From: a virus
DNA length: 35,811 nucleotides
IMG/VR virus record: IMGVR_UViG_3300035459_000030
Coordinates: 1-35,811 of that record
Strand: one strand, 5' to 3'
How positions within the stretch are numbered: the stretch's first letter is position 1; every line of letters starts with the position of its first letter. The notes below the pieces were generated by a model. That model was given only the letters and a program-made list of their open reading frames with translations. It was not told the origin of the DNA and did no database searches. Both the position numbers and the translations under genes were made by a program. This document shows positions 10,924 through 33,406 of this stretch, one piece after another.

Positions 10924-10926
10924 CGG

Positions 10927-13104: not shown

Positions 13105-13105
13105 A

Positions 13106-15773: not shown

Positions 15774-16301
15774 TCACTCCGCTAGCTTATCTAAGAAACT
15801 TTGTACAGCCGCCTCAATGATGCCGTCGACGTCCGGACCAGCCTTAGCCAGGGCGTCGTCAGCGGAAACCCAGCCGGAAGCGGCGTGGAAACTGACCTGC
15901 TTGGGGTCGTTATCTTTCCAGCCGTTGACGTATCCGGAGTACGAAGCGGAGTTGTGCAGGTGGCCCTCCACCCCTCCGCCGGCCAGCTTAGCCTCTTTCG
16001 TCCAGCGTTTGTCGAGCTGCTGGCTGGTCAGCTTGATCTGACCCCGCCTGGCAGCCTTGACTTTGAACCCGCCAGGCTGAGAAGCGTCCGCCACGAAAAA
16101 CGACTTCGGATAGCGGCCTTTGCCCCTGACATACGTGTTGAACGTCCTGGCCCGAGTGCGGGACGGCTGCGGTGCGTACACTTGGATCACCTCCTGCACC
16201 GCCTCCTCTGCGTCCAGGACGGCTCGGCTGGCGAACGGAGCGAATATCTCGCTCGCATTCGCCAGCACATCTTCCATTCGACTGATCGTCGAATCGGTCA
16301 T
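15774..16301 (-). CDS. Probable neck / head-tail joining protein (HK97 gp10-like position)
   Basis: A 175-residue basic protein just after the capsid gene. It opens with a helical segment (MEDVLANASEIFAPFASRAV) and holds YAPQPSRTRARTF, GKGRYPKSFFV and LTSQQLDKRWTKEA. Proteins of this size with a 'tail-completion' plan (helix, then P-x-x-T/S-R loops, ending in helix) occur in head-tail modules. It starts within the capsid stop (TAATG overlap), so it is translationally coupled and lacks its own clear ribosome site. Confidence 0.5.
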   Translation of the reverse strand: MTDSTISRMEDVLANASEIFAPFASRAVLDAEEAVQEVIQVYAPQPSRTRARTFNTYVRGKGRYPKSFFVADASQPGGFKVKAARRGQIKLTSQQLDKRWTKEAKLAGGGVEGHLHNSASYSGYVNGWKDNDPKQVSFHAASGWVSADDALAKAGPDVDGIIEAAVQSFLDKLAE

Positions 16302-18442
16302 TAGAGTGTATAGTCGACGCCCACCAGAGCCGTCTGAACCTGGGGTAAATAGCCCTCCAGGATCTCAGAAGTCGTGATGGAGTAGTTGTACGTGATCTGG
16401 TTGACGCCAGAAGCCTGGGACGGCAAGGGGAAGTAGGTGTAGGGGATGAGAACATCCCGAACGATGCCCCGGGACTCGTTGCCCATGGGGTACGGAATGG
16501 TTTCGGTCACAAACAGGACGGTCCCATCCGGCATATATGGATGGGGAAGGATGTCGATCATCTTCGGAGTGCCGTCAGCAAAAGGTGCAAACTTGTTAAC
16601 GTACCCGGTGACCATCATACCGCCGTTGACCTGGTTGCGGCTGTTGGTGACATCCAGGCGATAGAACCCGCCAGCGCCGCCCAGGGCCAGAAGCTTGCCC
16701 ACGACCGTACCGTTCATATTTGGTGACATGATCATCAGCGATGGAGCGATCTGCCAGTTCGTCCACAGGCTGGCCAGGATGGTATCGAATTCGGTGATGC
16801 CGCCCTGCCCGGTGGTCAAACCGAGGCCGGCCTTGTTGGTGATGGTGACTTTGCTGGTGATGGCCTGTGAGTACAGGGTTGAAAGCTCGCACTGCCCGAT
16901 CATGCCCTCGATGCCCAGGGCGTTGACCGTGGTATCGGCGGCAGGTGGGGTCAAGGCGGTTGAGCCTGAAGCCGCTGTAATGGTGGCCTTGGTGGTAACG
17001 ACTGTCTGGTTCCATGTGCTGGCAGAGCCAGAAGCTGCGCCCTGAGCCGACAGGTAAACGTTATAAGCCACCGCATTCTCGACTGGCGTCCAGGTGACAA
17101 CCAGGGAGTTCGTGGCGCCTGTACCGGTAACGGCAGAGCCGCTGATCACTGGAGTTGTTTCGCCAACGGTGGCGGAGCCGCCCTTACTCGTCGCCAACCA
17201 GCCTTCGTACGACAGGGCGGTGACTTCGATGTAGTAGGTGCCGGCAGAGCCGGAGTTAGAGATGGTGCCGCCCGCTGAGCCGGCGGTGACTGACAGGCCG
17301 GTGGGAACTGCCAGAGCCGCCACGTTGGACCCGAGCAAAACACGCTCCTGGCCTACCAGAAGGGCTGACATTGACTTGATGACAGATATCTGCATCGGGT
17401 CGGCGTAGCCACGGGTGGTGTTGAGAGCTTTCAGGGTGACGCTATCCTGTACAGCGATATCGTCGAACCCGGAAGTGAAGGTGATGAAGCTGGTGGGCGG
17501 ATTTACGCCAATGTTGGCCTCTGCCACCCGGAAGAATCCTTGCCAGCCGATGGAACCGAACCCGAGCTGCGCTTTCCAGGTTGCTAAGTTAGAGGACATT
17601 CCCTGCGGAGACTGAGCCGGCAGGCGGTTGGTGAGGCCGGCGTACACCGGCAGCATCAGCTTCGCCAGGCGGATCAAATAGACGCCGGGAACGCTGGCAG
17701 CGGTGATACCCTTGGCCAGGGAACCGTCGCCTATCTGAGCCAGGCCGGAGAGCTTGGACAGGTTATTGATATTCCAGCCGCCTTCGTTCAGAATGGCGAA
17801 CTGGGCCATTTTGAACATCTCGTCGAACTTCTGCTGGTTATTCCCGACCACCAGTTGAGCTTCCTTCACAGACCCGCCAGACAGGCTCTTGGGGTCGCCA
17901 ATCAAAGCCTTGATGAAGGCTGGCAGCTCAGACTCGTAGTCCTGGATTTTGTCAAATATCAGGTTGGGCTTGGGCGGCGTGGTCGAAAGGGGACCCTGGT
18001 CAACCTTTTGGGTGCTGCTGGGTACAGTTGTCATACTCGTATCCTCTGGGGGGCTGAATGAATAACCCTTGTCGGAAGGCGTCGAAGGGTCAAAATCGCC
18101 GGATGAACTATCCGGCACGGTTTTCGTGTCATCGTCGCTCGAAGATGAGCTGGATGAACTGGATGAGCTGGAACTGGGTGACGGCGTACTGCCCGAAGGC
18201 GTGGTAGGCATAGACGGGTCGCTGGTCTTGGAAACATCCGACATAGCCGCTTTCCCGTCTGAATTGGCGTCCGAGGCCGTATCCACCGTCACGTCCAGCA
18301 CCGACCCGAGCTGGTCGAGAAGCTGGCCGTCGATCTGGCCGTTCTTGGCCTGCTCTTGGAGCTGGCTGACCATCTGGCGGGCATTCCCAAGGATGTCCGT
18401 CGAGCTGGCCTTTTGTACAGGGTCTGTAACTTTAGTGGTCAT
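16301..18442 (-). CDS. Major capsid protein, HK97-fold type, with scaffold-like N-terminus and Ig-like insertion
   Basis: A 713-residue protein directly downstream of the prohead protease and preceded by a good GAGGG site. Residues 1 to about 165 are disordered and Ser/Pro/Asp rich, with a run of about 13 serines near 92-104. They look like a removable scaffold (delta) domain. From about 170 it resembles long phage capsid proteins: NEGGWNINNLSKLSGLAQIG, LAKLMLPVYAGLTNRLP, SPSLMIMSP-type helices, and a C-terminal region with NKFAPFADGTPKMIDILPHP and IPYPMGNESRG. Residues about 380-500 contain an inserted FN3/Ig-like domain (PTGLSVTAGSAGG, VVTWTPVENAVAYNVYLS). Such inserts often display on the capsid surface. 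The fold is inferred from position and general pattern. Confidence 0.75.
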   Translation of the reverse strand: MTTKVTDPVQKASSTDILGNARQMVSQLQEQAKNGQIDGQLLDQLGSVLDVTVDTASDANSDGKAAMSDVSKTSDPSMPTTPSGSTPSPSSSSSSSSSSSSSDDDTKTVPDSSSGDFDPSTPSDKGYSFSPPEDTSMTTVPSSTQKVDQGPLSTTPPKPNLIFDKIQDYESELPAFIKALIGDPKSLSGGSVKEAQLVVGNNQQKFDEMFKMAQFAILNEGGWNINNLSKLSGLAQIGDGSLAKGITAASVPGVYLIRLAKLMLPVYAGLTNRLPAQSPQGMSSNLATWKAQLGFGSIGWQGFFRVAEANIGVNPPTSFITFTSGFDDIAVQDSVTLKALNTTRGYADPMQISVIKSMSALLVGQERVLLGSNVAALAVPTGLSVTAGSAGGTISNSGSAGTYYIEVTALSYEGWLATSKGGSATVGETTPVISGSAVTGTGATNSLVVTWTPVENAVAYNVYLSAQGAASGSASTWNQTVVTTKATITAASGSTALTPPAADTTVNALGIEGMIGQCELSTLYSQAITSKVTITNKAGLGLTTGQGGITEFDTILASLWTNWQIAPSLMIMSPNMNGTVVGKLLALGGAGGFYRLDVTNSRNQVNGGMMVTGYVNKFAPFADGTPKMIDILPHPYMPDGTVLFVTETIPYPMGNESRGIVRDVLIPYTYFPLPSQASGVNQITYNYSITTSEILEGYLPQVQTALVGVDYTL

Positions 18443-19330
18443 TTATTCCCTCACTACTCGGATCATATGGCCGGGGGCGTCTGCTACGTCCTCGGAAAGT
18501 ATTTTTTCAAGTTCTTCCCGTACCGCCTGCCGCAGCAAATCCGGCAGGGAATCTCGAAAGTCCTGCATGACCTTGATCAGGGCATTGGCGGAGTCGGTCA
18601 TTTCCCGGCTGCGGACCAGGGCCTGGGTCAAAGTTTCAGTGGGCGGAACGTCGGTATTGGACTTGATAGGCAGCGGGTTGTTGGCCAGGGGAAATCGTGA
18701 TATTGAGATGGTCATCCCCTGTACACCGGTGATCACGTCCTCGGACGCCGGAGCCGGCGTGGGCGGGGTTGGAATCGCCTTGGTAACATCTTCATCTGGC
18801 TCCCAGGTGAGCGACAGGCCGGCTGCGCCAGGATGGAACTCCACCTCGCTGGCACCATCGGCCTTGGTAAGCTGGAACGTGGCACCCGGGATGCAGGGAG
18901 CGTCTACAATTGACAACTCGGACGGCTTGGCGGTGTAGCGAGTCAACCCAGGACGACTGCCGTCCGGCCATCTCTTGACGTAAGACCCGCCAATAGAAAA
19001 GCCGGTGTAGACGCCCTCTTTCACCTTCTGCCACTCGCCGTCGTCGACTATTTTGGCCCCGACAAAAAAGCCCATGGTCTTGTCGTCCGGCCGGAAGTCA
19101 ATCAACTTGCCGGCCACCCGGGTTTGGTGCATTGCTCGCAGGTTGCCCATTGAGCGGCCACCGGAGCGTTTCTGGGCGGCTGAGGACCAGTCCTCGAAGT
19201 ACGGCTTGGAACTTTTATAGTCCATGATCTCGTCTACCGCATCGGGCTGCTCCAGGGCACCCCAGCCCCATATTTCGTGGCGCTCTTCGTCGACTTTGGT
19301 GATCGGAAGGAACATCGTGTGATCGGGCAT
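18443..19330 (-). CDS. Prohead maturation protease
   Basis: A 295-residue protein just before the capsid gene. The N-terminal 175 residues match the HK97-family (S78/XkdF-like) prohead protease plan: NLRAMHQTRVAGK near 63-75 supplies a candidate catalytic His, and EGVYTGFSIGGSYVKR near 106-120 the Ser, followed by ELSIVDAPCIPGATF. The C-terminal third is polar and helical (SLPDLLRQAVREELEKIL) and may act as internal scaffold. The ribosome site is a very strong AAAGGAGG. A promoter with a leader hairpin lies just upstream, so head genes from here on may be separately controlled. Confidence 0.78.
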   Translation of the reverse strand: MPDHTMFLPITKVDEERHEIWGWGALEQPDAVDEIMDYKSSKPYFEDWSSAAQKRSGGRSMGNLRAMHQTRVAGKLIDFRPDDKTMGFFVGAKIVDDGEWQKVKEGVYTGFSIGGSYVKRWPDGSRPGLTRYTAKPSELSIVDAPCIPGATFQLTKADGASEVEFHPGAAGLSLTWEPDEDVTKAIPTPPTPAPASEDVITGVQGMTISISRFPLANNPLPIKSNTDVPPTETLTQALVRSREMTDSANALIKVMQDFRDSLPDLLRQAVREELEKILSEDVADAPGHMIRVVRE

Positions 19331-19613: not shown

Positions 19614-19876
19614 GACCCGCCTCCTGGGGGTTTATTCCAAACCGATTCGTAAAAGTAAGTTTTATCCAGCGCCGTCACATAGCGGGGGTCGTCCAGGAAC
19701 TTCACCCACACCTGCAGCGGGCGGGGATCGGGATAGAGCACGCCAAGGTCGGCCCGGTACAAATAAAATTTCTGGGTGTGGTCATCCTTGCGCTCCTTCT
19801 CGTCGTTGGGAAGCAAGAGCCAGGCGTCTGGCCCATCCCGGCCAACCGGGTACAGATCAGCGAGTGTCGGGGGCAT
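19610..19876 (-). CDS. Small hypothetical protein
   Basis: An 88-residue protein rich in Asp, Pro and aromatic residues (PTLADLYPVGRDGPDAWLLL, QKFYLYRADLGVLYPDP). The chosen start is ATG at 19876, three bases after GAGGTGG; a TTG four codons upstream is less likely. It overlaps the end of the previous gene by 20 bases and the next by ATGA. No function recognised. Confidence 0.6.
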   Translation of the reverse strand: MPPTLADLYPVGRDGPDAWLLLPNDEKERKDDHTQKFYLYRADLGVLYPDPRPLQVWVKFLDDPRYVTALDKTYFYESVWNKPPGGGS

Positions 19877-22046
19877 ATTCCACCTCAATTCCCATATCTT
19901 TCAACTTAGCCTCCACTATCTTGTAACGGTCAGAGAGTTGAGGCTTCCCGCCTCGCATACCCCACTCCCCTTCAAAACAAGAACTATGGAACACCACCTT
20001 CTGTACCTCGGCCAACTCAACCCCGCCCGTTATTTGAGCCTCCATGTACGACGACCAGCCCTTCAACCCAGCGCCCCGGGGATGATCCATGAGATCTTCA
20101 ACCTCCCCGTCCAGGCCCTCGATATCAGGGTTCAGAAGGGGTGTACCGCATAGCGACCCGTTGGCAAAATCTCCGAGCGAATCTCCGCAGGTGATAGTGG
20201 TGCGCTTCTTCACTTCCTCTTTCATGACTAGCTTGATCTCGCCATAAGATTCGGCGTCGGAGCCAGCGCCTTCGATGTAGCCGTAAATCGGCCGCAGGTG
20301 GGGCGTGATTTTGACGCCGTCCTTGAAACCCATGCCGTACATCTCGGCCCGGTTGCGATGTGAAGGGGACAGACAACCTTCCGACCTACCCGTCTCGAAC
20401 TGCGTCTTGAACCGCCCATCCCCATCGATCACTCTCGTCATGGCGTCAATACCCGTACGCTTACAGAGCGGCTTGTCCTTCACAGAGGCCCGGAAGTAGT
20501 CCAGAACCTTTTTTCTTGCACTGGCGACAGTCGTTTTATGCCGCCTGGCCCAGTCGGATATTTCGGTTTCCGCATGATTCCGGGCATTCTCCAGATCTTC
20601 GCCCTTGGCCTGGTACAGCGGCTTCTCGGCCTTACGGATATACTCCCGGGCTGGATCCGCTGGCGGTGCCTTGAGCGGAGCATGAGGCTTGGCGGCCGCA
20701 GCACCAGGCTTGGCTGGAGCGGGGCGGGGAGCGGGGGCAGGGGCTGGCACCTTGGCCTCCCGGGCCTCCCGGATCTTCACGGCGTACCGATCCCGGATAT
20801 TGTTGGTCATCTCAACCATTTCGTTGTCGAGGGTCTCAAGATCGGACCCCGAGAGCTTTTCGGCTGCAATCTCACGGGCTTTATCCCGGAACTCAATCAC
20901 GCCGTCAATATCCGACGTAACAGAATGCTGCAGGGCGTACAACTTATCATTCTTCCCGATCTTCGCTTTTACCCGCAGGTAGATCGCCCGGATGCCGTCG
21001 CCAGCGACTTCGGCCTCGATGGGCTTGACCTCGTCGGGTGTCAGATCGGGCAACGCTGAAGCCGGAGCCGGCGCTGCACCCAGGCCACCGTCAGGACGCA
21101 TCCCAGGCCCAGGCATCGGTACACCGCTGGTGGGTCTGACCGTCACAAACCTAGCCGGCAGAGCCGCAGGACCAGCACCCGCAGCCTTCTTGCGCTCCCG
21201 TAGTTCTGCGATACGAATAGCAGTCACGGCACGATCAAACGTACTTTTATCCTCCGCTCGCATCAGAGCGCCTCGCATAGAATGAACTACATAGTCGTAA
21301 CGCTTCTTTCCGCTAAGACCCAATTTTCCAGCCATATCAAAAGCCAATACAGGATCATCGTCCGGACCAGGATAAGCCAGCTTCAGGCGCCTCATCCCCT
21401 CGCCCTCCCAGAATGTTTCAGGGGCGGCCGGGGCAGGTGTCCCGAATACAGCGTCCAGGATCGCCCGATCCCTTGCCTCCATCGTGGGACTGCGTGGGGG
21501 CGCCGTGGGGGCTTTTGGCGGTACAGCCGACACAGATGCCACTGCGGCTGGCTTTGGGGGCACTGTGGCCGTCCTGGGGGCGGGTGGCGCAACCGGAGCG
21601 GCGGAGACACGTGGCGGGCCGATCTTCTTGCCAGGCTCGAACACACCCGCCTTCTTGCGCTCCCGCAGCTCTGCAATGCGGACTGCAGTCATGGCGTGGT
21701 CGAACTTGTCACGGTCAGCACCGGAGAGCTTCGCTCGCAAGCCGGCCGCCATAAAATCATAAAGAGCCTTACCTTTCAGATCGTCGGGGGCGGCCGCCAT
21801 AATTTCAGGCAAGTCATGGTCTCCCCCTGGGTAAGCCTCGACCAACCTCCTTGCGCCGACCACGGTGAAAAATTTATCCCGGTCGTACGCAGGCGCCTTG
21901 GCCGGCGCCTCAGCCGCAGAAGCGGCAGCTGGTTCACCGCCGCCGCCACCTTTCGGGGCAAACTCGCCGCCACCCCCTTCCCCTTTCGGTACCCGGGGAT
22001 GCTCGGTCGGGTCGAAATCAACCTTGATCATTCTTGGCAGCGTCAT
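19857..22046 (-). CDS. Minor head-associated protein with possible ADP-ribosyltransferase-like C-terminus
   Basis: A 729-residue protein in three parts. Residues 1-40 carry HPRVPKGEGGGGEFAPKGG, a motif also present in the kinase-like protein upstream. Residues 55-440 hold Ala/Pro-rich linkers and repeated helical modules: RIAELRERKKA occurs twice, and the module with VKAKIGKNDKLYALQHSV is shared with the kinase-like protein. The C-terminal 200 residues read SEGCLSPSHRNRAEMYG, SYGEIKLVMKEEVKKRTTIT-CGDS and SSYMEAQITGGVELAEVQKV. This resembles DUF3626-type domains that have been linked to the ADP-ribosyltransferase fold, with possible Arg, Ser and Glu positions; I hold this link loosely. ATGA overlap with the Mu F-like gene. 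It may be packaged in the head and ejected. Confidence 0.6.
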   Translation of the reverse strand: MTLPRMIKVDFDPTEHPRVPKGEGGGGEFAPKGGGGGEPAAASAAEAPAKAPAYDRDKFFTVVGARRLVEAYPGGDHDLPEIMAAAPDDLKGKALYDFMAAGLRAKLSGADRDKFDHAMTAVRIAELRERKKAGVFEPGKKIGPPRVSAAPVAPPAPRTATVPPKPAAVASVSAVPPKAPTAPPRSPTMEARDRAILDAVFGTPAPAAPETFWEGEGMRRLKLAYPGPDDDPVLAFDMAGKLGLSGKKRYDYVVHSMRGALMRAEDKSTFDRAVTAIRIAELRERKKAAGAGPAALPARFVTVRPTSGVPMPGPGMRPDGGLGAAPAPASALPDLTPDEVKPIEAEVAGDGIRAIYLRVKAKIGKNDKLYALQHSVTSDIDGVIEFRDKAREIAAEKLSGSDLETLDNEMVEMTNNIRDRYAVKIREAREAKVPAPAPAPRPAPAKPGAAAAKPHAPLKAPPADPAREYIRKAEKPLYQAKGEDLENARNHAETEISDWARRHKTTVASARKKVLDYFRASVKDKPLCKRTGIDAMTRVIDGDGRFKTQFETGRSEGCLSPSHRNRAEMYGMGFKDGVKITPHLRPIYGYIEGAGSDAESYGEIKLVMKEEVKKRTTITCGDSLGDFANGSLCGTPLLNPDIEGLDGEVEDLMDHPRGAGLKGWSSYMEAQITGGVELAEVQKVVFHSSCFEGEWGMRGGKPQLSDRYKIVEAKLKDMGIEVEYAPDTR

Positions 22047-22804
22047 AGTACGACTCCTCTGGCAACCTCACTGGGGCGCATGAGCACGCTCGAGCACCGG
22101 CAGTCAGGATGCCCTGGCGGCATCTTCTGCCCCACGTTGAACACCCGGCCATGCAGCGCCCGGCAGCCGTTGTACCAGGCGCCGTCCGGCCCCTGCAGGC
22201 GCTTCGTGCAGACCAGGCTGTCCCGCTTAGTCTGCCACCACCACTGGTTGATACCCAGTACGCCCGCCACGTGCTCCTGAATCAGGCTGGCGGCCCGGGT
22301 GATCTCGGTCTGAGCGATCAGGTCGGCCCGGGGCCGGCCAAAGTGCGGAGACAGATCCCGCACCGCAGCCTCCATGGTCTCGCCAGGCGTGGCAAACCAC
22401 TGGTTGATGCGAGCCGCCACCTTGCGCTGGGTCGACACCCGTACGCGCCGGATCTGCAGCGCCAGGTCGGCCTCGATCTGGTTCAGAACCGCCTGGTAAT
22501 TGAATTCGAATGGATCGGAGAGCGGCTGCATCCTGGCGATGGCCTCCTCTAGCGTAAACAGGGGTACGATACCGTCCGCCACCAGGTCGATCAGCCGCTT
22601 GTGCAAGCGCTCCTCGAAGCGCTCCCAGACGGCATGGTTCTCATAGAACGAAACCTTGCGGAGCTGGCTGCTGGCCGTACGCAGCTTCACCCGCACCCGG
22701 CGCCACAACCACTGCAGCTCCTCATGAGCCGCCTGGCCCATCTTGTCCTGCAGATCGGTTTGCAGCCGGGAGCGCTGGCGTGCAGCATCGGTCAGGCGTT
22801 TCAT
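22043..22804 (-). CDS. Minor head protein, Mu gpF / SPP1 gp7-like
   Basis: A 253-residue protein, mostly helical. It carries the family's two landmarks: a helix with IAQTEITRAASLIQEHVAG near 164-184, and the terminal CRALHGRVFNVGQ then MPPGHPDCRCSSVL motif near 217-243, with His and Cys residues. Proteins of this family associate with the portal and are often needed for infectivity or DNA entry. The gene is embedded in the head operon with ATGA overlaps on both sides and no separate ribosome site of note. Confidence 0.85.
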   Translation of the reverse strand: MKRLTDAARQRSRLQTDLQDKMGQAAHEELQWLWRRVRVKLRTASSQLRKVSFYENHAVWERFEERLHKRLIDLVADGIVPLFTLEEAIARMQPLSDPFEFNYQAVLNQIEADLALQIRRVRVSTQRKVAARINQWFATPGETMEAAVRDLSPHFGRPRADLIAQTEITRAASLIQEHVAGVLGINQWWWQTKRDSLVCTKRLQGPDGAWYNGCRALHGRVFNVGQKMPPGHPDCRCSSVLMRPSEVARGVVL

Positions 22805-23124
22805 GCAGGCAGCCCTTCTTGCAAGCTAACGTGGTCGTAGGCGCTGCGAAAGATAATGCGGAGCGTACGCCAGTGCTTGCGGTTGGTTGGGTCAAACAGG
22901 CCCTTGCTATCGGGGAAGTCATCCTCGATCTGGCCAAACCAGGTCTTGCCAGACATCAGGGCCTTGAACGTGTCCGCACCCGATTCGGTGCCAGAGACCT
23001 GGGTGGCCGTACAGCTCTCCTCGGGACCCGTCACCTTCACCACCAGATAAGGCGTGGTGGTGCGCTTGGCCCGGTTCCACTCGTAAAACGTGACTGTCAA
23101 ATCCTGTACATTCGCCATATCCAT
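22801..23124 (-). CDS. Hypothetical protein in head operon
   Basis: A 107-residue protein with beta-type composition (VQDLTVTFYEWNRA, TTPYLVVKVTG, HWRTLRIIFRSAYDHVSL). Ribosome site GAGG precedes ATG at 23124, 3 bases past the previous stop. It lies between the kinase-like gene and the Mu F-like gene. No family was recognised. Confidence 0.6.
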   Translation of the reverse strand: MDMANVQDLTVTFYEWNRAKRTTTPYLVVKVTGPEESCTATQVSGTESGADTFKALMSGKTWFGQIEDDFPDSKGLFDPTNRKHWRTLRIIFRSAYDHVSLQEGLPA

Positions 23125-23127
23125 AGT

Positions 23128-25305
23128 TTACCTCACCATCCCCTCGAGCTGAGAGATGCCGTAGTCGCAGGCTTCTTTCCAGTTCTTTTCGAATTGATCC
23201 ACGGTGACGTGGCGCTTCGCCAGGTCGGCGGCCCCCACCCCCTGGCCGTAGTGCTCCTTAACCAACTGACTAAACTGCGGACTGTTCACGAACGCCTTGA
23301 CCTTGGCGACGTCCTCTTTTTTGACCACCTTATTGACACGGTCGCCCGTCAGGGCAGCACAATATGTGTCGCAGTTCGAAGCGCACCGGCCCAGGATGTG
23401 AGCATGCGGCTCGCCCCGGCCGGCCTCCAGGCCGACCAGGCCATTGTCGACACCCCGCATCTCACCCGTGGCCTCGTCGTACATCCAATTGCCAGGGTTG
23501 CGGTCACGGTTGGCCAGGCCGTAGTCGAAGGCGATCATCTCAGAGACTGAAGCCCGCAGGGCCGGCGTATCCTTCACGCCGCCCCGGTGGTACAGCACAT
23601 CCGAGCCACGGATGCCAGTCTCCAGCCACGCCTGCATCGAATAGGTGCCCTTCTTGCCCGTCACCGGGTCGTCGGCCTCTTTGTACGAAGTCGGCTGGAG
23701 CACGTGGAAGCCGGCCAGGACAGAAGCTTCGTAGGCACAAACCTCGGAAGGCGGGAAGCCGTACCGGCTGCCCTCGCTGGTGCTGGTGCCCTTCATACAG
23801 GCATCGGCATCGCCCTCCACGTGCATGTGGAAGGTGGTATCGTCATTGATACCGCCGCCCTTGATCTCGTCGACCAGCGAAACAGGGTTGTCGTGGTACA
23901 TCTGCAAGAGCTTGGCGTGAACCGGGGACACACGGGCCAGAATCGAAGCGTGAAAAGCATCCCCACTCAGCACGCCATGGGCCTTCTTATCCTCCAGGGC
24001 CTTGGCCTGCGCCGCAACCCATTCGTTGCCGGCAGCGAGATAATGCTCATTCATCGCAGCGGCAGACATTTTATCGCCGCCCACCGCCTTCAGCTTATTC
24101 ATAAAAGCCAGCATGTCATTCTCGGGGTCGGAGCCGGCGTCCGCCTGTTTCCAGGCCCGCAGCACCTCGCCGCCTCGAATGCCATGAGCGATGGCAGTCT
24201 CAGCCAGGCTGTCGATATGCTTATGCCAGATCGGGGCTGCAATGGCCTTGCGCTCGTGGTCGTCCAGAGTAACAGACTTGACCGGAACCGGAGCCGCAGG
24301 CGGAATGGGCTTCTTGGCTTCACGGGCCGCCTTTACCCTGTCGTCGAACTCGTTTACAGCGTTCTGGGCGATTGAGTCAATCTCGTCCATCTCGCCCGGG
24401 CGACCATTGCGCTCTAAAATATCCCTGACCTGCTGATGAAAATACACTATCCCAGTCAGATCTCGCCCAGCTTTATGCTGGAGGGCAAACAGCTCATCAT
24501 TCTTGCCGATCTTGGCCTTGGCCTTCAAGTACATACTACGGATGGCGTTGGTGGCTACATCGGCCTTGATATTAGCCACCTCGGTTGTGCTCAGGTCTGG
24601 CAGCCCGGAAGTGCCAGTGCCCGCCGCAGCCGGAGCTGAAGCGCCGCCAAAGGCGCCCCCGACCGGGCGTACGGCAAAGCCCTTGGGTGCAGGCTTCGCC
24701 GCCGGAGCAGCCGCAGGCGCTGCAGCTCCAACGTGCTTGGCCTTGATGCCGCCAGCGCCACGCCAGCCGGCCACACGGAGCTTCTCTCGCATGGCCTTGA
24801 ACTCGGCGCCCTTGCCCTCTATATCGGCCGCTCTTTGTACAAAGCCGGCCATGTATTTGAAACCTTCCTCTGGATCCTTAGAAGCCCCGATATCAATGGC
24901 GTCCCGATAAGCCTGCTCGAAGTTTGAAGGGTCCATGGCTAATTCGTCTTTGCCATAGTCCCTCATCTGGCGGATGGCGTTGGCATAATGCTTGGCCTTG
25001 AACCTTGCCACCGATTCCTTGCCGCCCGTACTAACGTCCGCCGTGGCCGGGTAGTGCGGCTTCTTGGCAGCCGGAGCGGCTGCGGCAGCCCCAGCGACCG
25101 CACCGCCCTTGGGAGCGAACTCGCCCCCGCCCTTACCGCTGGGAACCCGGGGATGCTTGGTGGAGTCGAACGCCTTATCCAGATCGTCTGGCCAGACCAC
25201 CTTGATCATGCGTGAGCCAGGCACCGTCTCGATCTCCACCTGCTCCAGATGCTTGGTGTGGTGCCGTACAGCCAGTTTCAATTGGTTCCGGATAGAGACC
25301 TTCAT
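23128..25305 (-). CDS. Kinase-like protein (PI3K/HipA-related fold) with phage N-terminal modules
   Basis: A 725-residue protein. The start is ATG at 25305 (MKVSIRNQLK) with GGGAGGTG upstream and ATGA overlap with the portal stop; 46 extra open codons upstream are rejected. Residues about 42-65 carry STKHPRVPSG then GGEFAPKGG. The middle holds helical modules with KAKIGKNDELFALQHK, shared with the 729-residue protein downstream. The C-terminal 230 residues look like an atypical kinase: ACMKGTSTSEG (candidate ATP-binding Lys near 503), EVCAYEASVLAG (Glu), VLQPTSY, then ANRDRNPGNWMYD near 600 and GVDNGL near 620, equivalent to the catalytic and metal-binding loops. Catalytic residues appear intact. 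The substrate is unknown. Position suggests a virion-associated or ejected enzyme. Confidence 0.7.
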   Translation of the reverse strand: MKVSIRNQLKLAVRHHTKHLEQVEIETVPGSRMIKVVWPDDLDKAFDSTKHPRVPSGKGGGEFAPKGGAVAGAAAAAPAAKKPHYPATADVSTGGKESVARFKAKHYANAIRQMRDYGKDELAMDPSNFEQAYRDAIDIGASKDPEEGFKYMAGFVQRAADIEGKGAEFKAMREKLRVAGWRGAGGIKAKHVGAAAPAAAPAAKPAPKGFAVRPVGGAFGGASAPAAAGTGTSGLPDLSTTEVANIKADVATNAIRSMYLKAKAKIGKNDELFALQHKAGRDLTGIVYFHQQVRDILERNGRPGEMDEIDSIAQNAVNEFDDRVKAAREAKKPIPPAAPVPVKSVTLDDHERKAIAAPIWHKHIDSLAETAIAHGIRGGEVLRAWKQADAGSDPENDMLAFMNKLKAVGGDKMSAAAMNEHYLAAGNEWVAAQAKALEDKKAHGVLSGDAFHASILARVSPVHAKLLQMYHDNPVSLVDEIKGGGINDDTTFHMHVEGDADACMKGTSTSEGSRYGFPPSEVCAYEASVLAGFHVLQPTSYKEADDPVTGKKGTYSMQAWLETGIRGSDVLYHRGGVKDTPALRASVSEMIAFDYGLANRDRNPGNWMYDEATGEMRGVDNGLVGLEAGRGEPHAHILGRCASNCDTYCAALTGDRVNKVVKKEDVAKVKAFVNSPQFSQLVKEHYGQGVGAADLAKRHVTVDQFEKNWKEACDYGISQLEGMVR

Positions 25306-28253
25306 CCCGCACCTCCCTCGGTCATCGGTGTCGGCAGCGGGGGAACCATGGGAATCATGCGAGCCTTGTACACGTCCACCGCTCGCTGCAGAGCGTTTGC
25401 GACCGCCTGCTCGTCCTCCAGGCAGTTGCGAATGTCGGACCACAGGTCGTGGTTGCCGATAATGAGATAAACCGAATCGATCAACTCGGGGTTCAGCGGC
25501 CGGCCCCTGACAGCGTCCACAAATGTGCTGTGCAGCTCCTGGTCGGCCTTGACCGGGAAGGCCAGGTCGCTGTCGATCAGCACCGGCCGGCCGTCGTCAT
25601 CCGGGTGGGTCAACCAGTTTTTGTTGAAGCGGTCGACCTGGCCGGAGATGTAGTCCAGCACCGCCGCCTGCTGCACCCAGGCTTCGTCGTATTCGTTGAC
25701 GTCCTTACGCTGCTCCCGGCCCTGTACGTAGTGCTGAATCGAGCCAGGCTTGCCGTCCAGTTCGTCCATCCAGGTGACCGGCACCAGGTAATGGTTCACG
25801 TCGGGCGCCAGCTCCCGGTCGAGAAGGTAAACCGCCTCGGCCCGCCGGTACATCTCGCCTCCCACCCACTCCTGCAGATCCTTCTTCTCGCCGTCCAGCG
25901 GCTTCCAGACCGCCGGCCTGGGTTCCTGGTTGACCCCACCCACAGATACGATCATGGCGTCATTGGCGCCCTGGTGCGGCATGGGTACAGCCAGCGGGTG
26001 GGTGACCGGGGCACCGTAATACTGCTCGTCCAGAGCGTCCACCCCGCAGGTCTTAAACAAATCCAAGCCGGCCAGGAACTTCTCAGCCAGGCCAGCGTCC
26101 TCGAGCTTGTCGTAATAATGCGGATCCTCTTTTAAGTGGTCGAGCGCCACCTGGGCGATCTTCGCCTGATCGCCGCCCAGCGTACCAGCGTGCTCCTGCT
26201 CCTCTTTCAAGCCAGCAAACCACTCAAACATGGTGATCTTGTCCCAGTCGACCCCGAGCTGCTCACCCAGGTCGAGCATGGCATCTTCCTGCGCCTCTTC
26301 GTTGTCGAGCGACTCGGCATCGGTCACCGGATCGCCGGCAGCGTCGTCAGCGCCCAGGGCCTTCTTCACCCGCAGCGGCTGCTTGAGCACCGATACCATG
26401 TGGTTGAGCACCTGAACGGTCTTGTGGTCTTTGACGTCGATAGCGCCGTGCAGTCCACCAGGCTTCACGCCAATCGGGCCATCCAAACCACCGCCACCAT
26501 CTGACCCGTCGTCCTGTGCAGAACCCTTGCCGCCCAGGGGAGCCATCTGCTGGCCCTTCTCGCCGCCCAGCGGCTCCATGTTGATGCCGCCCCGGTATTC
26601 GTCCAGGGTGATGCCGCCAATCTGGAAGCGGGTGGCAAACTTGGCCTCTTCTTTGTCGGGGTCGATGCTCTCTTTGGGGAACATCAGTTTGAAGAACGTG
26701 CCATCGTAGCCGTTCTCAGTCAGCGTCTCATTGAAACAGCCCTCGATATACGACTGCAGGGGACTGATACACATACGGTAAAAGGCCGAGCTCATCGCCT
26801 CAGCAAAGCCCTTGCCCCCCAGCATGCCCTCCGGAGCCTCACCTACCTCGGATTTCGGGATGCCGGCCGATATGCGTACGGCGTTTGAAGCCACGTCGTA
26901 GGTCTCCTGGTTGAAGGTCATATCCTTGACCGCAATCTGGGTCATGCCGGCAGGCATAAATCGCACCCTGGCCGCCCGTTCTTGCAGATTGCCGCCCATG
27001 CGGTCGTTGTATTCGTCCTCGTACTGGAATATCTTCTCAGGGGAAGTCCACTCGGGCGGAGAAGCCAGCATCATCTCAGGCAGCGTGCCGGTAGTGTACT
27101 TGGCCTGCTCGTAAGTCCACAGGTTGGCCAGCAACAGCACAGCGCCTATGCTATCCTCGATGAACGTCTTGCCATAAGGCGCATCGGGCCGCAGGTAGCG
27201 GGGCCGGTACAGAAGCTGGCGCGTGTTGAGATACATCCTCGGCGTGCCCCAGATCACCTGGGTGAAGGCCGGAGCCGGCGGCTGCGGTTGCTCGCCTCGC
27301 TCGTCGATCACGCTAAAGATGGTCGAGCCGTCAATGATCCGCAGGCCGACCACCGGGGCGTTAGCCAGCTTCGCCAGCTTGCCCTTGAATAGCTTATCGT
27401 GCTGGATCGCATCGCCGTCGATCTCAGTCATCTGGTGCTGAGTGAGCGATTCGCCGCAGTTACGGCAGCGCTTCTCGCTGACGTCAGTCTTGGCTAAGTC
27501 GTAATGGTAAACATTGGCCTGACCGCAATTGGTACAAAACCAGCGCACCTGCGGGATAGCCGTCTCGTTCTCCCAGATATGGGTCAGGTCGCAGGGCTTG
27601 TAGACCTTGCCCTTCAGCATGCGCTGCGGCTCGCCCGAGATATCACGGATGCGGTACAGCGCCGGCGCATCGTAGGCCAGAACGTTGAAGATAAAACGAG
27701 AGAGCCAGACCGGCCAGGGGTTGAAGCGGTCAGGCTTGGTGGTCATCCATTCCATTTCGGGTATCTTAACCGGCTGGTCGTTCTTATCCACCAGGGTCGG
27801 GTTGAACGCCTTCAGCTCCTCGGTGGGCAGCCGGATGCAGAGAGCGACCTCCGGCACGTTCAGGGCGTAGTTCTTCAGATCGCTGAACGCCGTCAGGTTG
27901 TAAGCCAGGCGGGGACTGATGGTGCTGTTGACAGACGGCACGTACTGGAATGAGCGTGGCTCGGCATTGCGCTGCTCTTCCGAGAACGTCTCGTTCGTCC
28001 AGGGCCGGCCAGGCCCCATCCATTCATTGGCCCAACTGCCCGGCACGTTGTTGTGCCTCGGGGGCCGCAGCGTATCGACTACCTCGATTGGGCCATTCGT
28101 GCCATTATTGGACTGTACACCCGTGGGTGTTGACAAGCCGGTCGTGACGTTTACCGGGTGAGCCGGCGCCTGCGCCAGACCGCCCAAGACCGGGACGCCG
28201 GGCGCTTTCCTTAGCCCGTCTACAAAGCCGTTTACGGCTTCTCGTAGTCCCAT
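25302..28253 (-). CDS. Portal protein with C-terminal kinase-like domain
   Basis: At 983 residues this is about twice the usual portal length. Residues 1 to about 590 form the portal: WPVWLSRFIFNVLAYDAPAL, the YRPRYLRPDAPYGKTFIED clip/wing segment, and RISAGIPKSEVGEAPEG with a stem-crown helix. A Cys cluster (CTNCGQ then CRNCGES near 235-265) may bind zinc. Residues about 640-760 contain ALDHLKEDPHYYDKLED, a motif seen in other phage structural proteins. Residues about 780-900 look like a kinase: AVWKPLDGEKK (Lys), RRAEAVYLLDREL (Glu), VPVTWMDELDGKPGS, DYISGQVDRFNKNWL (catalytic loop) and LIDSDLAFP (metal site). Strong GGAGGG site. The fusion puts a kinase-like domain at the DNA-entry vertex of the virion. 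Confidence 0.82.
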   Translation of the reverse strand: MGLREAVNGFVDGLRKAPGVPVLGGLAQAPAHPVNVTTGLSTPTGVQSNNGTNGPIEVVDTLRPPRHNNVPGSWANEWMGPGRPWTNETFSEEQRNAEPRSFQYVPSVNSTISPRLAYNLTAFSDLKNYALNVPEVALCIRLPTEELKAFNPTLVDKNDQPVKIPEMEWMTTKPDRFNPWPVWLSRFIFNVLAYDAPALYRIRDISGEPQRMLKGKVYKPCDLTHIWENETAIPQVRWFCTNCGQANVYHYDLAKTDVSEKRCRNCGESLTQHQMTEIDGDAIQHDKLFKGKLAKLANAPVVGLRIIDGSTIFSVIDERGEQPQPPAPAFTQVIWGTPRMYLNTRQLLYRPRYLRPDAPYGKTFIEDSIGAVLLLANLWTYEQAKYTTGTLPEMMLASPPEWTSPEKIFQYEDEYNDRMGGNLQERAARVRFMPAGMTQIAVKDMTFNQETYDVASNAVRISAGIPKSEVGEAPEGMLGGKGFAEAMSSAFYRMCISPLQSYIEGCFNETLTENGYDGTFFKLMFPKESIDPDKEEAKFATRFQIGGITLDEYRGGINMEPLGGEKGQQMAPLGGKGSAQDDGSDGGGGLDGPIGVKPGGLHGAIDVKDHKTVQVLNHMVSVLKQPLRVKKALGADDAAGDPVTDAESLDNEEAQEDAMLDLGEQLGVDWDKITMFEWFAGLKEEQEHAGTLGGDQAKIAQVALDHLKEDPHYYDKLEDAGLAEKFLAGLDLFKTCGVDALDEQYYGAPVTHPLAVPMPHQGANDAMIVSVGGVNQEPRPAVWKPLDGEKKDLQEWVGGEMYRRAEAVYLLDRELAPDVNHYLVPVTWMDELDGKPGSIQHYVQGREQRKDVNEYDEAWVQQAAVLDYISGQVDRFNKNWLTHPDDDGRPVLIDSDLAFPVKADQELHSTFVDAVRGRPLNPELIDSVYLIIGNHDLWSDIRNCLEDEQAVANALQRAVDVYKARMIPMVPPLPTPMTEGGAG

Positions 28254-28285: not shown

Positions 28286-29866
28286 TCAAAAACCCTGAAT
28301 AATACTACCCGCCACCTGGGGCCGTACCCGGGCTGCCCGCTCGGCGTTCGATTTCTTCAACGCCTCAATCCACTTATCGATACTGGGCTGGCTGCCTTCC
28401 CAGAAGGCCATGACCACGCCGTCGCCGTCATCGGTGGAGCGGCCGATGCGCTCCTTGATATCATCCTTCGACTCCATGATGATCTTGCCGCCGCTCTGCT
28501 CTTTCCAGTGTACGGAAGTCAGGTCGCCGGTCAGGTTGGTGGCCAGGGCGTCGCCCTGATCTTCGTCGGGGGGCAGCGCCACATGGAAACCGTTGGCCGG
28601 GTCGAGCAACTCCCGCATGTGCCACCAGGCTGCCGCCCGCAGGTTGGCAAAGCCCAACTCGTGCGTGCTGTCCAGGGCGTCAGTCTTCTCGGCGGCGTTG
28701 AACGCCACTACATTGCAATGCTGCTCCCGTAGCCGATCGAACACCCCGGCCCCGATGCCGATCACGTCCACCACGGCATACCCGCCGTAAGCGTCAAGAA
28801 TCCCTTTGATACGGCCGGTGGTCTGCATGGTATCCTCAAGGTGCATCTTCCGCAGCTCTTTGATCACGAACTCGTAACGCAGGGCCAGCGACGTGGCGTC
28901 CTCGCCAGACCTGGCGATGTCCGAGCCTACGCAGGTGAACTGCAGGCCGGCAAAGTTGTGATCTTGCTGCGCGTACCACTCCTCATTGGCCTTCTCCACC
29001 CAGGACAGGGGAATGACGCCGTCTTTCTCGCTCGAAGCAAAATTACCCAGCACCCGGTTCTGGTACGCAGCCGACTGCTCGCCCCACTGCTTGATACGGA
29101 AGTTCGCCCACTCCTGGTTGAGCCGGCCAGCTGCGATGACCTCGGCCAGGGTGATGTGACGCACGGACCAGTCCTCGTAGCCGTTCTTGCGGCTCTGGAT
29201 GTCGTAGAACCGCCCGGCCGGCTCGCCAGGCGTACTGACCGCCAGCCAGTAGCAGTCGCCAGCGCTGAAGGCGCCCTCGGCGCTGTCCCAGGTATCGACC
29301 GGTATCTCCTTGCTCTCGTCGAACACGTACAGCATGCGCTCGGCGTGGGCGCCCTCGATCAGGGCGGAGTTGTCGGATGCCAGGCAGAACGCCTCGCCCG
29401 TGTCCAGCTTCAGATTCAGCTCCTGCAGCTCCAGGCGCTCGTCGAACGGCTGGCGGCCGATCACATCCCACCTCAGCCGGCGTGCCCACTTGTGTACTTC
29501 AGGGAAAAGGAACTTGGTGAGCTGGCGCCAGGCACTGGCCGTGATAGGCACCTTCCAATCGTAGTCGCCGTCGTTCACCAGGGCAAACCACAGAATGATG
29601 AGAGCCACCACCGCCGTCTTGCCCACGCCGTGCGGACTGCGGACTGACAACCGCCGCAGGGCTGGCAGATCCGTGGCGATCTTGGTCTGGTACGGAGCCG
29701 GCCCCTCGCCAGGGCGCCAATTGATACAGTCCCGGATGAAACCCGCCGCATCATACCGGTATCGCTCTTTGAAGCGCTGGTAGGCCGTGCGCTCGTCCCC
29801 CGCCTTCCCGGCCCGCCGCCGCAGCTCGAGCTGTGCCCTAGCCTGGATTTGCAGTGACGTCGGCAG
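28286..29866 (-). CDS. terL: Terminase large subunit
   Basis: The DNA-packaging motor ATPase and nuclease. The uninterrupted frame from a CTG at 29866 gives 526 residues. Walker A is PHGVGKT near 78-84, Walker B MLYVFDE near 178-184, and the RNase-H-like nuclease begins VGSDIARSGEDAT near 313-325, followed by VVDVIGIGAGV and the final GDALATNLTGD region. The APYQTKIATDL segment (Q-motif) lies upstream of the first TTG at 29650, so a start at that TTG would remove a needed part. Between 29905 and 29651 the frame has no ATG, GTG or TTG. CTG at 29866 follows GGGAG by six bases and is my preferred start. It overlaps the end of the small subunit gene by 29 bases. Confidence 0.88.
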   Translation of the reverse strand: MPTSLQIQARAQLELRRRAGKAGDERTAYQRFKERYRYDAAGFIRDCINWRPGEGPAPYQTKIATDLPALRRLSVRSPHGVGKTAVVALIILWFALVNDGDYDWKVPITASAWRQLTKFLFPEVHKWARRLRWDVIGRQPFDERLELQELNLKLDTGEAFCLASDNSALIEGAHAERMLYVFDESKEIPVDTWDSAEGAFSAGDCYWLAVSTPGEPAGRFYDIQSRKNGYEDWSVRHITLAEVIAAGRLNQEWANFRIKQWGEQSAAYQNRVLGNFASSEKDGVIPLSWVEKANEEWYAQQDHNFAGLQFTCVGSDIARSGEDATSLALRYEFVIKELRKMHLEDTMQTTGRIKGILDAYGGYAVVDVIGIGAGVFDRLREQHCNVVAFNAAEKTDALDSTHELGFANLRAAAWWHMRELLDPANGFHVALPPDEDQGDALATNLTGDLTSVHWKEQSGGKIIMESKDDIKERIGRSTDDGDGVVMAFWEGSQPSIDKWIEALKKSNAERAARVRPQVAGSIIQGF

Positions 29867-30361: not shown

Positions 30362-30717
30362 GATGTCAATTTCGACCTCATCGCCGCCAGCACCTGGGCA
30401 TACGTGCTGGTTACATTGGCCGTCGCAAAGCCCTGCGCCGCCAGCCATTGGTTGAGCTGCAATCGTATCCCGGCCGGAATAACCACAATATAAGTTGCTC
30501 CCGACAGATCCATCGCCCTGGCCTGTAGCACCTTCGCAAAATCTGCAAAAACATTCTGGATATTCGTGACAGCATCGGACGCTACACCCGCCAGGTCGAA
30601 GGCGCTCAATGGAACCGTATTAATCTGCACATCGCAATAACCATTGCCGTCCGGCGCAACCTGCGTGACATACTCAACAATCTGGCCGAACAGGGGAATA
30701 GGCGCGTATTTAGGCAT
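30358..30717 (-). CDS. Hypothetical protein downstream of the DGR reverse transcriptase
   Basis: A 119-residue protein overlapping the end of the reverse transcriptase gene by 8 bases. It begins with PKYAPIPLFGQIVEYVTQVA and has a helical remainder (AVTNIQNVFADFAKVLQARA, IPAGIRLQLNQWLAAQG). It is not a recognisable Avd four-helix accessory protein, although its place (next to the RT) and helical C-terminal half make an accessory role possible. It could equally belong to the terminase side. Confidence 0.6.
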   Translation of the reverse strand: MPKYAPIPLFGQIVEYVTQVAPDGNGYCDVQINTVPLSAFDLAGVASDAVTNIQNVFADFAKVLQARAMDLSGATYIVVIPAGIRLQLNQWLAAQGFATANVTSTYAQVLAAMRSKLTS

Positions 30718-31744
30718 AGTGACTGATCACTCCTTTCGCTAATCGCAAACTTACTTTTGGCTTGACATATTTATTGTAAAAATGATAACTATTACTCCTC
30801 TTGATCCAGCCCCAATAAGACACCACTGCACATGCATCTTGATAGGTCATCATCTTTTTACCGCCAATCTTGGCCATCCTTCTTCGGATGCGTAGGGCAT
30901 TCCGTTTGCGCAGTATTGTCTTATCCCGGAAAAAACGTAATCCCAAAAAATCAATTGCTCGCTTCGTTATCAAGAATACCTGCCAGTCCTGTTTGAGCGT
31001 TAGGTGAAGCGTGGCGAGATATTCGCTGATAGCTATCCTTACCTGGTGTAGTTTGCGTTTATTGCTGCCCGGGATAACCAAATCGTCAACGTAGCGCAGG
31101 TAATACTTCGCTCCAAATTTCTCTTTAATCAAATGATCCAGGTCCTGTAATAAGAAATTAGATAGCCACTGGCTGGTATAGTTCCCGATCGGCAAACCCT
31201 GCGGATTACTATCGATAATTATGTCCAACAGCCACAGGCAGTCGGCGTCCTTGATGTGCTTCCTTAGGATTGCCTTGAGTATTTCTCGGTCAATGGATGG
31301 ATAAAATTTAGAGATATCCATCTTCAGGCAATATTTGGTGCCTTTGTAATCTCTATCCAGCCATTTGCGCAGCGCCTTCTGGGCGTAGCTCGTTCCTCGC
31401 CCAGGAACGCTACCGCAGGTATATTCATACATTCCGCGTGTAAATACGCCATGCAGTTGCAGCATCAGCGCCCAATGGATGATTTGGTCGGGATAATAAC
31501 GCGGTTTGTAAATCGTGCGCTCCTTGTTGCTCGACCGATCCTGGATGGTTTTGATCGTGTATGGCGACGGGATATAGGTTCGCCCCGTCAAAATTTTTTG
31601 AATTTCCCTTGCATAGAAATCCGCGTTATCCATAATTCTCTTGACATACCTTCTATCGCGCTTACCAATCGAGGAACGCTTGATCGCCTCCTTGATATTT
31701 TCGATCTCACAAACCTTTTCGTAGATGTGACCAGTTCGTTTCAT
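30710..31744 (-). CDS. DGR reverse transcriptase
   Basis: A 344-residue reverse transcriptase of the diversity-generating retroelement class. It begins MKRTGHIYEKVCEIENIKEA, like other DGR RTs. Motif A is KMDISKFYPSID (Asp143). The motif-4 region GLPIGNYTSQWLSNF at 183-197 has the IGN-x-x-SQ form diagnostic of DGR enzymes. The polymerase aspartates are RYVDD at 217-221. No maturase, nuclease or thumb extension beyond the compact DGR size. It copies the TR RNA with errors opposite adenines. The start has AAGAAGG upstream. The TR lies 127 bases before the gene, in the usual target-TR-RT order. Confidence 0.95.
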   Translation of the reverse strand: MKRTGHIYEKVCEIENIKEAIKRSSIGKRDRRYVKRIMDNADFYAREIQKILTGRTYIPSPYTIKTIQDRSSNKERTIYKPRYYPDQIIHWALMLQLHGVFTRGMYEYTCGSVPGRGTSYAQKALRKWLDRDYKGTKYCLKMDISKFYPSIDREILKAILRKHIKDADCLWLLDIIIDSNPQGLPIGNYTSQWLSNFLLQDLDHLIKEKFGAKYYLRYVDDLVIPGSNKRKLHQVRIAISEYLATLHLTLKQDWQVFLITKRAIDFLGLRFFRDKTILRKRNALRIRRRMAKIGGKKMMTYQDACAVVSYWGWIKRSNSYHFYNKYVKPKVSLRLAKGVISHYA

Positions 31745-31870
31745 AAGACCTTCTTATTAGCCTCAAGGTGGTTCGGTTTCCCTACTAAACCCTGCTCTTT
31801 ACGGCCTGATTTTCACCAAGAGGTGGGGAATATAAGATGCAAATATTTCATAACCATCTCTAATAAGAGT

Positions 31871-31974
31871 CCGGCCGCCGATGTTGACGTTCGCATTCCC
31901 GGAGGTGTTGTTCAGGTTCCAGTAGAACAGGCCCGCATTCGACCCGTTGTTCCAATTCGCACCAAACATCGCAA
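31871..31974 (-). repeat. DGR template repeat (TR)
   Basis: A 104-base segment matching the 3' end of the target gene without gaps. It differs at 17 positions, all T on the plus strand, that is, A on the coding strand (17 of its 24 adenines). No G, C or T of the coding strand is changed. Read in the target frame it codes for ten Asn codons, the usual adenine-rich AAC/AAT design that allows broad substitution. Confidence 0.97.
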
Positions 31975-32024
31975 GCACGCATCCTATATCCCTTTTTGAT
32001 TTATAAAGAACAAGAAAAGCAAGA

Positions 32025-32042
32025 CTGGGGGGAGACCCCCAG
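32025..32042 (-). other. Hairpin downstream of the variable region
   Basis: A perfect 7-bp GC-rich stem with a 4-base loop (GAGA on the plus strand, TCTC on the coding strand). It lies 27 bases past the VR, just beyond the target stop codon. Known DGRs carry a GC-rich hairpin or cruciform with a tetraloop here that raises retrohoming efficiency. The T-rich sequence beyond it could also make it a terminator. Confidence 0.7.
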
Positions 32043-32047
32043 ACCCC

Positions 32048-33406
32048 CTAAAGAGCCTTTCTAAGAAGCCGGCCGCCGAGGGTGACGCCCGCATCCCCGG
32101 AGGCGTTGCTCAGGTTCCAGGAGAACAGGCCCGCAGCCGACCCGCCGCGCCAAGACGCACCAAACAGCGCAATTCTTTGTCCGGTAGAGGAGTAATAGTA
32201 GTCTGAGTAGTATGTGCTTGATGCGGCCCCGACAGCGGTCGGGAGCGCTGCGTATGGATGTGCGGCGTCGTAGCCGAGCGCGGTCGAGTAACCATCTATT
32301 GAGCCATCGGCGTACGAGAGTTGTTCGTACGGGGAAGCAAACAGGTTGCTGGCGTAGCTGGCCGGATCTGCGCAAACCCAGGCCTGGCGCTCGTTGATAT
32401 TCAGCCCATCGACAAACTGGTAAATCGAGCCCCACGGATTTTCGATGCCCCGGTAAACGCAGGGGTGTTTGGCATCACTGTTGCTCGCGATGGAGCCAGT
32501 TTTAGCGACAACTGCATCACACGCACCGGATTTCCAGGCGACGTTATAAAGCATATTACCAATTGCGATATTGACCGCAGCGCCATCAAAACTAACGGCT
32601 TTGTTACTTCCATCGTAAACATCGATGGAAGTGATATTACGTCCATAGCAGATCTGGTTTCCGCCTTGAGTTGTGCCAATTCCAATTGGCTGCCCAACCG
32701 TAAATGCGGCGGCGTTTGCATTGGAGACCACGATCCTGTTGACTCCGCTCTCTGCTACAGTCGCCGTGTGCGTGGCATCATATTGCCCACCCGTCCAACC
32801 CTGCATAATGCTCTGGCTGTTCAGTGTGGCGAACTCAACCAAAAACAATGTTTGCAGCACATCTATGGCGTGGATGTCGAGTTGCTGATAACCCGCGCCG
32901 TTGGCCTGTGCGTATCCCCGGATATCAACAATGTTTTTGTTGATCAATGGATAGACGCCACTCTTGCTTTCTAATTTATTGGCGCCGCTAAGCGAGGCAT
33001 TGTATTTACCGATGTCCACATACGGCAGGATCAACCCACTGGCGCCAACAAAACATTTAGGCAGGTAGGCTGAGCCAAATGGGTTGCGCGAGATGCGCCA
33101 GGTCATTGCTGGAGCATTGTTCTTTTTCTCGATGTAGAATTTAGGGATACGGATAAAAACGTTGCCCAACCCATCAGTGACCTGAGTGATGCTACGGTAA
33201 ATGTCGGCATTGTCAAAGTTGTTGGTAACTACATCACTATCTACACCGGCAGCCGCAACCATGCCAACTGACGCATCGGTGCGGGTCAATGTTGGGCTGG
33301 AACCGCCATTCCAAGATACGCCATAAATGGGCGCAACCCCTCCCCCTCTCAGCGTCCCCTGCCCTGGAACTTGCCTTCCAATTGTTGGCAATCTCAATCC
33401 TGGCAT
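32048..33406 (-). CDS. DGR target protein with variable C-terminus
   Basis: A 452-residue protein. It begins with a short attachment segment, then YGVSWNGGSSPTLTRTDAS, a beginning seen in phage DGR tropism-type proteins. The C-terminal half (VYRGIENPWGSIYQFVDGLN, then ALFGASWRGGSAAGLFSWNL, NASGDAGVTLGGRLL) has the C-type-lectin / formylglycine-enzyme-like pattern with W, G and D residues that surrounds exposed variable sites. The last 35 residues are the VR. Eight of the ten template Asn codons have been replaced (S, R, G, A, S, D, G, T). A strong GGAGGTG site precedes ATG at 33406 and overlaps the end of the homing endonuclease gene. It is probably a tail-tip receptor-binding protein. Confidence 0.92.
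   Translation of the reverse strand: MPGLRLPTIGRQVPGQGTLRGGGVAPIYGVSWNGGSSPTLTRTDASVGMVAAAGVDSDVVTNNFDNADIYRSITQVTDGLGNVFIRIPKFYIEKKNNAPAMTWRISRNPFGSAYLPKCFVGASGLILPYVDIGKYNASLSGANKLESKSGVYPLINKNIVDIRGYAQANGAGYQQLDIHAIDVLQTLFLVEFATLNSQSIMQGWTGGQYDATHTATVAESGVNRIVVSNANAAAFTVGQPIGIGTTQGGNQICYGRNITSIDVYDGSNKAVSFDGAAVNIAIGNMLYNVAWKSGACDAVVAKTGSIASNSDAKHPCVYRGIENPWGSIYQFVDGLNINERQAWVCADPASYASNLFASPYEQLSYADGSIDGYSTALGYDAAHPYAALPTAVGAASSTYYSDYYYSSTGQRIALFGASWRGGSAAGLFSWNLSNASGDAGVTLGGRLLRKAL
32069..32172 (-). repeat. DGR variable region (VR)
   Basis: The 104-base counterpart of the TR at the 3' end of the target gene. It ends on the coding strand in an unmutated GGCGGCCGG block, with a divergent sequence beyond, which fits an initiation-of-mutagenic-homing site. 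All changed positions are adenines in the template. Confidence 0.97.

Follow-up and report, generated by a model that had tools for sequence, protein, structure and literature searches.

A predicted PI3/PI4-kinase-like domain on the portal protein of an IMG/VR virus, a candidate head-carried effector

Where portal or MuF proteins carry a fused enzyme domain, it has been interpreted as an effector that is packaged in the phage head and injected (Iyer et al. 2017, PMC5512222; PMC9503650). In the available text of these two papers, such domains are encoded in the packaging module and swapped between relatives; the portal partners described comprise PBECR, 2H and Nudix domains together with ADP-ribosyltransferases (ARTs), and the polyvalent kinases described belong to another group, which lacks the C-terminal subdomain. 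In MuF polymorphic toxins, the MuF gene lies directly downstream of the portal gene and encodes variable C-terminal enzymes (Jamet et al. 2017, PMC5576092). A HipA-like kinase gene located between the portal and capsid genes of Gratiaviridae was interpreted as late-acting (PMC8008677). The gp3 protein of the cultured Arthrobacter phage Mufasa8 combines portal, an effector enzyme (Nudix) and MuF in a single chain. The TIGR03843 (SCO1664) family comprises stand-alone, cellular PI3/PI4-kinase-like proteins of actinobacteria; it is uncharacterised, and one paper records just its linkage to mycothiol genes.

The locus described here was found in IMG/VR record IMGVR_UViG_3300035459_000030, from an uncultivated phage, and the window denotes the whole analysed stretch of 35,811 nucleotides. 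Portal proteins form the ring by which DNA passes into and out of the virus head. The portal gene of the window encodes an uninterrupted chain with a portal core at residues 298–624 (phrog_2662, 9.5e-26), followed by DUF5661 and a kinase-like domain (Table 1). The window portal (P0001) scores 23.7 with the Pfam Phage_portal model, under the cut-off of 39.1, and homologous portals score above this cut-off. DUF5661 is also present in the portals of two related loci, L003 and L039. The portal of the window has an insertion at residues 204–298 (about 27360–27644) with two CxxC pairs, C240/C243 and C263/C266; it is zinc-ribbon-like and is absent from the L003 portal.

Table 1. Features of the window, all on the minus strand where a strand is given
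Feature	Coordinates	Strand	Basis or remark
Probable major capsid protein	16301..18442	-	phrog_13692 5.1e-39 (family without known function)
Probable head maturation protease	18443..19330	-	phrog_9427 1.8e-12
HPR tag, shared linker module and C-terminal DUF3626 gene	19857..22046	-	DUF3626 1.8e-8
MuF-like minor head protein	22043..22804	-	phrog_2468 1e-10; Phage_Mu_F 6e-4
Second kinase-like gene: HPR tag, shared linker module, C-terminal kinase-like domain	23128..25305	-	
Portal-DUF5661-kinase fusion gene, 983 aa	25302..28253	-	single open frame; phrog_2662 and DUF5661 matches
Kinase-like domain, residues 735–978	25320..26051 (about)	-	family profile; TIGR03843 4.9e-7; residue positions
DUF5661 domain, residues 661–719	26097..26273	-	Pfam PF18905 3.2e-13
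Terminase large subunit	28286..29650	-	phrog_2 1.3e-27
Reverse transcriptase of retroelement	30710–31744	-	phrog_1423 4e-107
Template repeat of retroelement	31864–31974	-	
Variable repeat of retroelement	32062–32172	-	at 3' end of 452-aa gene 32048–33406

A preliminary description of this DNA had proposed a portal of about 983 residues whose C-terminal part is a PI3K/HipA-type kinase. The size, the portal identity and the fusion were all confirmed, and the catalytic motifs that it listed are present: K784 of KPLDGE (codon 25902–25904), the downstream E806, D874, R875 and N879 of VDRFNKNW, and D894 of IDSD. Within the proposed metal site IDSD, D894 is conserved and the other aspartate is not. 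The interval given for the domain, 25302–26000, located it correctly but is too short, since the family profile extends the domain to residues 735–978. The PI3K part of the assignment is supported, and the HipA part is not, since no HipA family model occurs among the Pfam, NCBIfam or PADLOC matches; membership of HipA was thus rejected.

The kinase assignment draws on homologues and profile HMMs, with the fold predicted from sequence. The Pfam PI3_PI4_kinase model (PF00454) matches the portal kinase domains weakly, from E = 0.04 in the window portal to 2e-5 in homologue P0009, and every match is under the cut-off (25.0 bits against 27.1 in P0009). The NCBIfam model TIGR03843 matches the intact portals with the exception of that of L041 (four of five) and also the separate kinase of L036, with E values of 4.9e-7 (P0001), 1.3e-8 (P0009), 7.8e-9 (P0023), 2e-10 (P0015, the L036 kinase) and 8.3e-13 (P0017, the L039 portal). 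The last match is nearly full-length and spans positions 13–246 of the 253 in the model. The scores of 23–48 bits are far under the curated cut-off of 172.4 bits, so the portal domain is a distant relative of TIGR03843 and not a member. TIGR03843 is the nearest named family. A profile built from the other homologues alone recovers P0001 at 2.1e-102 (database size fixed at one million). A chance motif match is ruled out by the homologue profiles together with the independent TIGR03843 model. These results support the presence, at the portal C-terminus, of a PI3K/PI4K-like kinase domain whose catalytic residues are intact.

Among the homologues, L003, whose 1033-aa portal bears the same kinase domain, came from scanning IMG/VR with a terminase query; portal, kinase and capsid alignments used as queries yielded L035, L036, L038/L039/L040, L041, L043 and L049. 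No matches were obtained when viral contigs were scanned with P0001 or each kinase domain as a single-sequence query. The portals of L038, L039 and L040 are identical, so that an intact kinase-like domain is found on five distinct portals, those of the window, L003, L039, L041 and L043; the fusion with intact residues is thus seen again in four portals besides the one first described. In L036, the kinase is a gene of its own (280 aa) that adjoins a portal-ADP-ribosyltransferase fusion (PF03496, 1.2e-29). Across these six intact sequences the five catalytic positions do not vary, and all six show the ordered features of the PI3/PI4-kinase-like superfamily: nucleotide-binding Lys, helix Glu, DRxxxN loop and metal Asp. 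The portals of L035 and L049 carry degraded copies in which the catalytic residues are gone. Loss of the Lys, Asn and Asp positions in homologues, which the preliminary description had named as evidence against a kinase, is thus confined to these two and absent from the other six. The virus of L035 also encodes a 1205-aa MuF-Nudix protein (9998–13615), in which a further kinase-like stretch, GNWDVIGMNADN...RIDNGG, was noticed by eye; it has no Pfam kinase match.

Outside this family, relatives of the kinase domain were sought in several collections. In PHROGs, no family was found for it (best E 0.11, in one of seven members). No relatives were found in the cultured phage collection even with E limits of 1 or 10, nor in plasmids and GTDB genomes apart from one insignificant plasmid match (E = 4); these scans used exact peptide patterns or single-sequence tblastn, which distant relatives could escape. 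Sequence searches of the PDB gave no useful match, and no fusion of a portal to a PI3/4K-like kinase was found in searches of an open-access library.

Along the minus strand, the terminase gene is followed by the portal-kinase gene, the second kinase-like gene, an ORF of 107 aa, MuF, the DUF3626 gene, the protease gene and the gene for the probable major capsid protein. The capsid call rests on position and conservation; relatives occupy the same place. The second kinase-like gene, which had been overlooked in the preliminary description, likely starts at an ATG at 25305 and overlaps the portal stop. It matches PI3_PI4_kinase at 2.8e-5, or at 7.1e-6 when the C-terminal part is compared by itself, and contains a separate ordered set of Lys, Glu, D..N and Asp residues. 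Comparison with the portal-kinase profile was without significance, so kinship between the two is not established and the second domain would be at best a divergent relative. The DUF3626 gene appears ADP-ribosyltransferase-like, by eye only. It has an HPR...GEF tag in common with the second kinase-like gene, as well as a 97-aa module (38%, 2e-17). Across the window and the related loci retrieved, all copies of the HPR tag lie in a portal gene or in a gene of the downstream stretch. This tag or linker (FDxxxHPRxxxGxF) recurs before effector-like domains in the window (19857–25305), L003, L036, L038, L039 and L041; it is perhaps a packaging or processing signal. The 107-aa ORF (22801–23124, minus strand) is situated between the second kinase-like gene and MuF; immunity genes often occupy such a position.

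The corresponding islands of the relatives contain 2H phosphoesterase, Nudix and ADP-ribosyltransferase domains and a weak JAB-like match. The L041 portal gene encodes a portal-kinase-2H phosphoesterase chain, the L039 island has MuF-ART with the weak JAB-like tail, and the L035 island has MuF-Nudix. PADLOC gave a marginal JetB match outside the kinase. The window thus has a predicted enzyme domain fused to a head protein within the packaging module, the feature that marks portal/MuF head effectors, and as in the published fusions its partners are swapped between relatives. The island fits the known pattern of head-carried effectors, and its kinase type turned up in neither PHROGs nor the collection of cultured phages. 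Unlike in MuF polymorphic toxins, the kinases of the window are on the portal and in a separate gene and not on MuF. The Gratiaviridae kinase is similarly placed, but it is a separate gene of the HipA family from another phage group, with no portal fusion reported. Mufasa8 gp3 has a Nudix domain instead of a kinase.

We put at somewhat better than even the chance that this distant TIGR03843 and PI3/PI4-kinase-like relative is carried in the head as an effector, anchored at the portal. It is the likeliest reading because published work treats portal/MuF-enzyme fusions as packaged, injected effectors, and the gene neighbourhood also favours carried effector cargo over the role suggested in the preliminary description, action during assembly or on the host at ejection. 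Sequence-level support comes from the intact chain, the invariant catalytic residues in six sequences with their independent TIGR03843 match, and the exchangeable enzyme domains of the islands (window, L035, L036, L039 and L041), with Mufasa8 as a cultured precedent. The portal-kinase design, kept in related viruses, probably carries a host-modifying enzyme in the virus particle. We infer its activity, substrate and delivery as follows. About twelve copies would be present per head, since the domain is built into the portal ring. The C-terminal side of HK97-type portals is established to face the head interior, and by analogy the kinase may face it too. T4 Alt ADP-ribosylates host targets when DNA enters; the portal kinase, cleaved free or still anchored, may likewise phosphorylate host targets at DNA entry, protein being the first guess for the substrate. 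Three points weigh against this reading: the portal itself remains in the particle, so delivery would need an extra step; degraded copies persist on the L035 and L049 portals; and TIGR03843 is itself uncharacterised.

An alternative is that the kinase acts in the producing cell late in infection, where it would time head assembly or packaging by phosphorylating portal, protease, terminase or capsid, or would phosphorylate host proteins and so block superinfection. Its place in the late structural module, tied to the portal, is consistent with this, as is the late-acting interpretation of the Gratiaviridae kinase. However, the kinase is off the portal in L036 and dead in L035 and L049, so a fused active enzyme is dispensable for assembly in this group, and the neighbouring genes look like host-directed effectors; we regard late action as unlikely. 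The same degraded copies bear on the proposal that the domain is of kinase-like ancestry and serves on the portal as a non-catalytic structural or binding module. The L035 and L049 portals retain them, so enzyme function is not required of the domain in every virus, and their retention argues for an added structural role in these two portals; the Pfam matches under cut-off also agree with this proposal. Against it, none of the catalytic positions varies among the six distinct intact sequences, and constraint drops sharply once they are lost. In portal-core and kinase trees, the end branches leading to intact kinases measure about 1–2.6 times the length of the corresponding portal-core branches, compared with about 7–10 times for the two degraded kinases. 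This supports constraint on the intact copies, and with it the effector reading, without deciding, because resolution in the kinase tree is poor and the alignment may inflate its long branches. The kinase region has the usual third-position excess among codon-position differences. We consider a non-catalytic module improbable.

Distinctly improbable is a further reading, in which the assembled portal would itself function within the particle as a ring of about twelve kinases. Its targets would be the portal, ejected proteins or host factors, the effect would be to gate packaging or ejection, and in some lineages it would have decayed to a portal-shaping pseudokinase. Very doubtful is phosphorylation of a host metabolite or lipid rather than protein: the nearest named families are PI3/PI4-kinase-like, but the superfamily has protein kinases too, and no substrate site was identified in the domain.

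If active, the fused domain would station kinases in fixed copy number at the DNA gate of the virus head, and the phage effectors carried in heads would come to include this kinase type. The naturally occurring forms, whether intact, split or dead, can separate selection on catalysis from selection on fold. The uncharacterised bacterial family TIGR03843 gains an assayable phage relative.

Elsewhere in the window, an apparently complete diversity-generating retroelement is located at 30710–33406 on the minus strand. Its template and variable repeats differ at 19 positions, 18 of which are template adenines. At the contig end (35691–35811), an identical 52-nt sequence occurs twice, 69 bases apart, possibly as an assembly effect.
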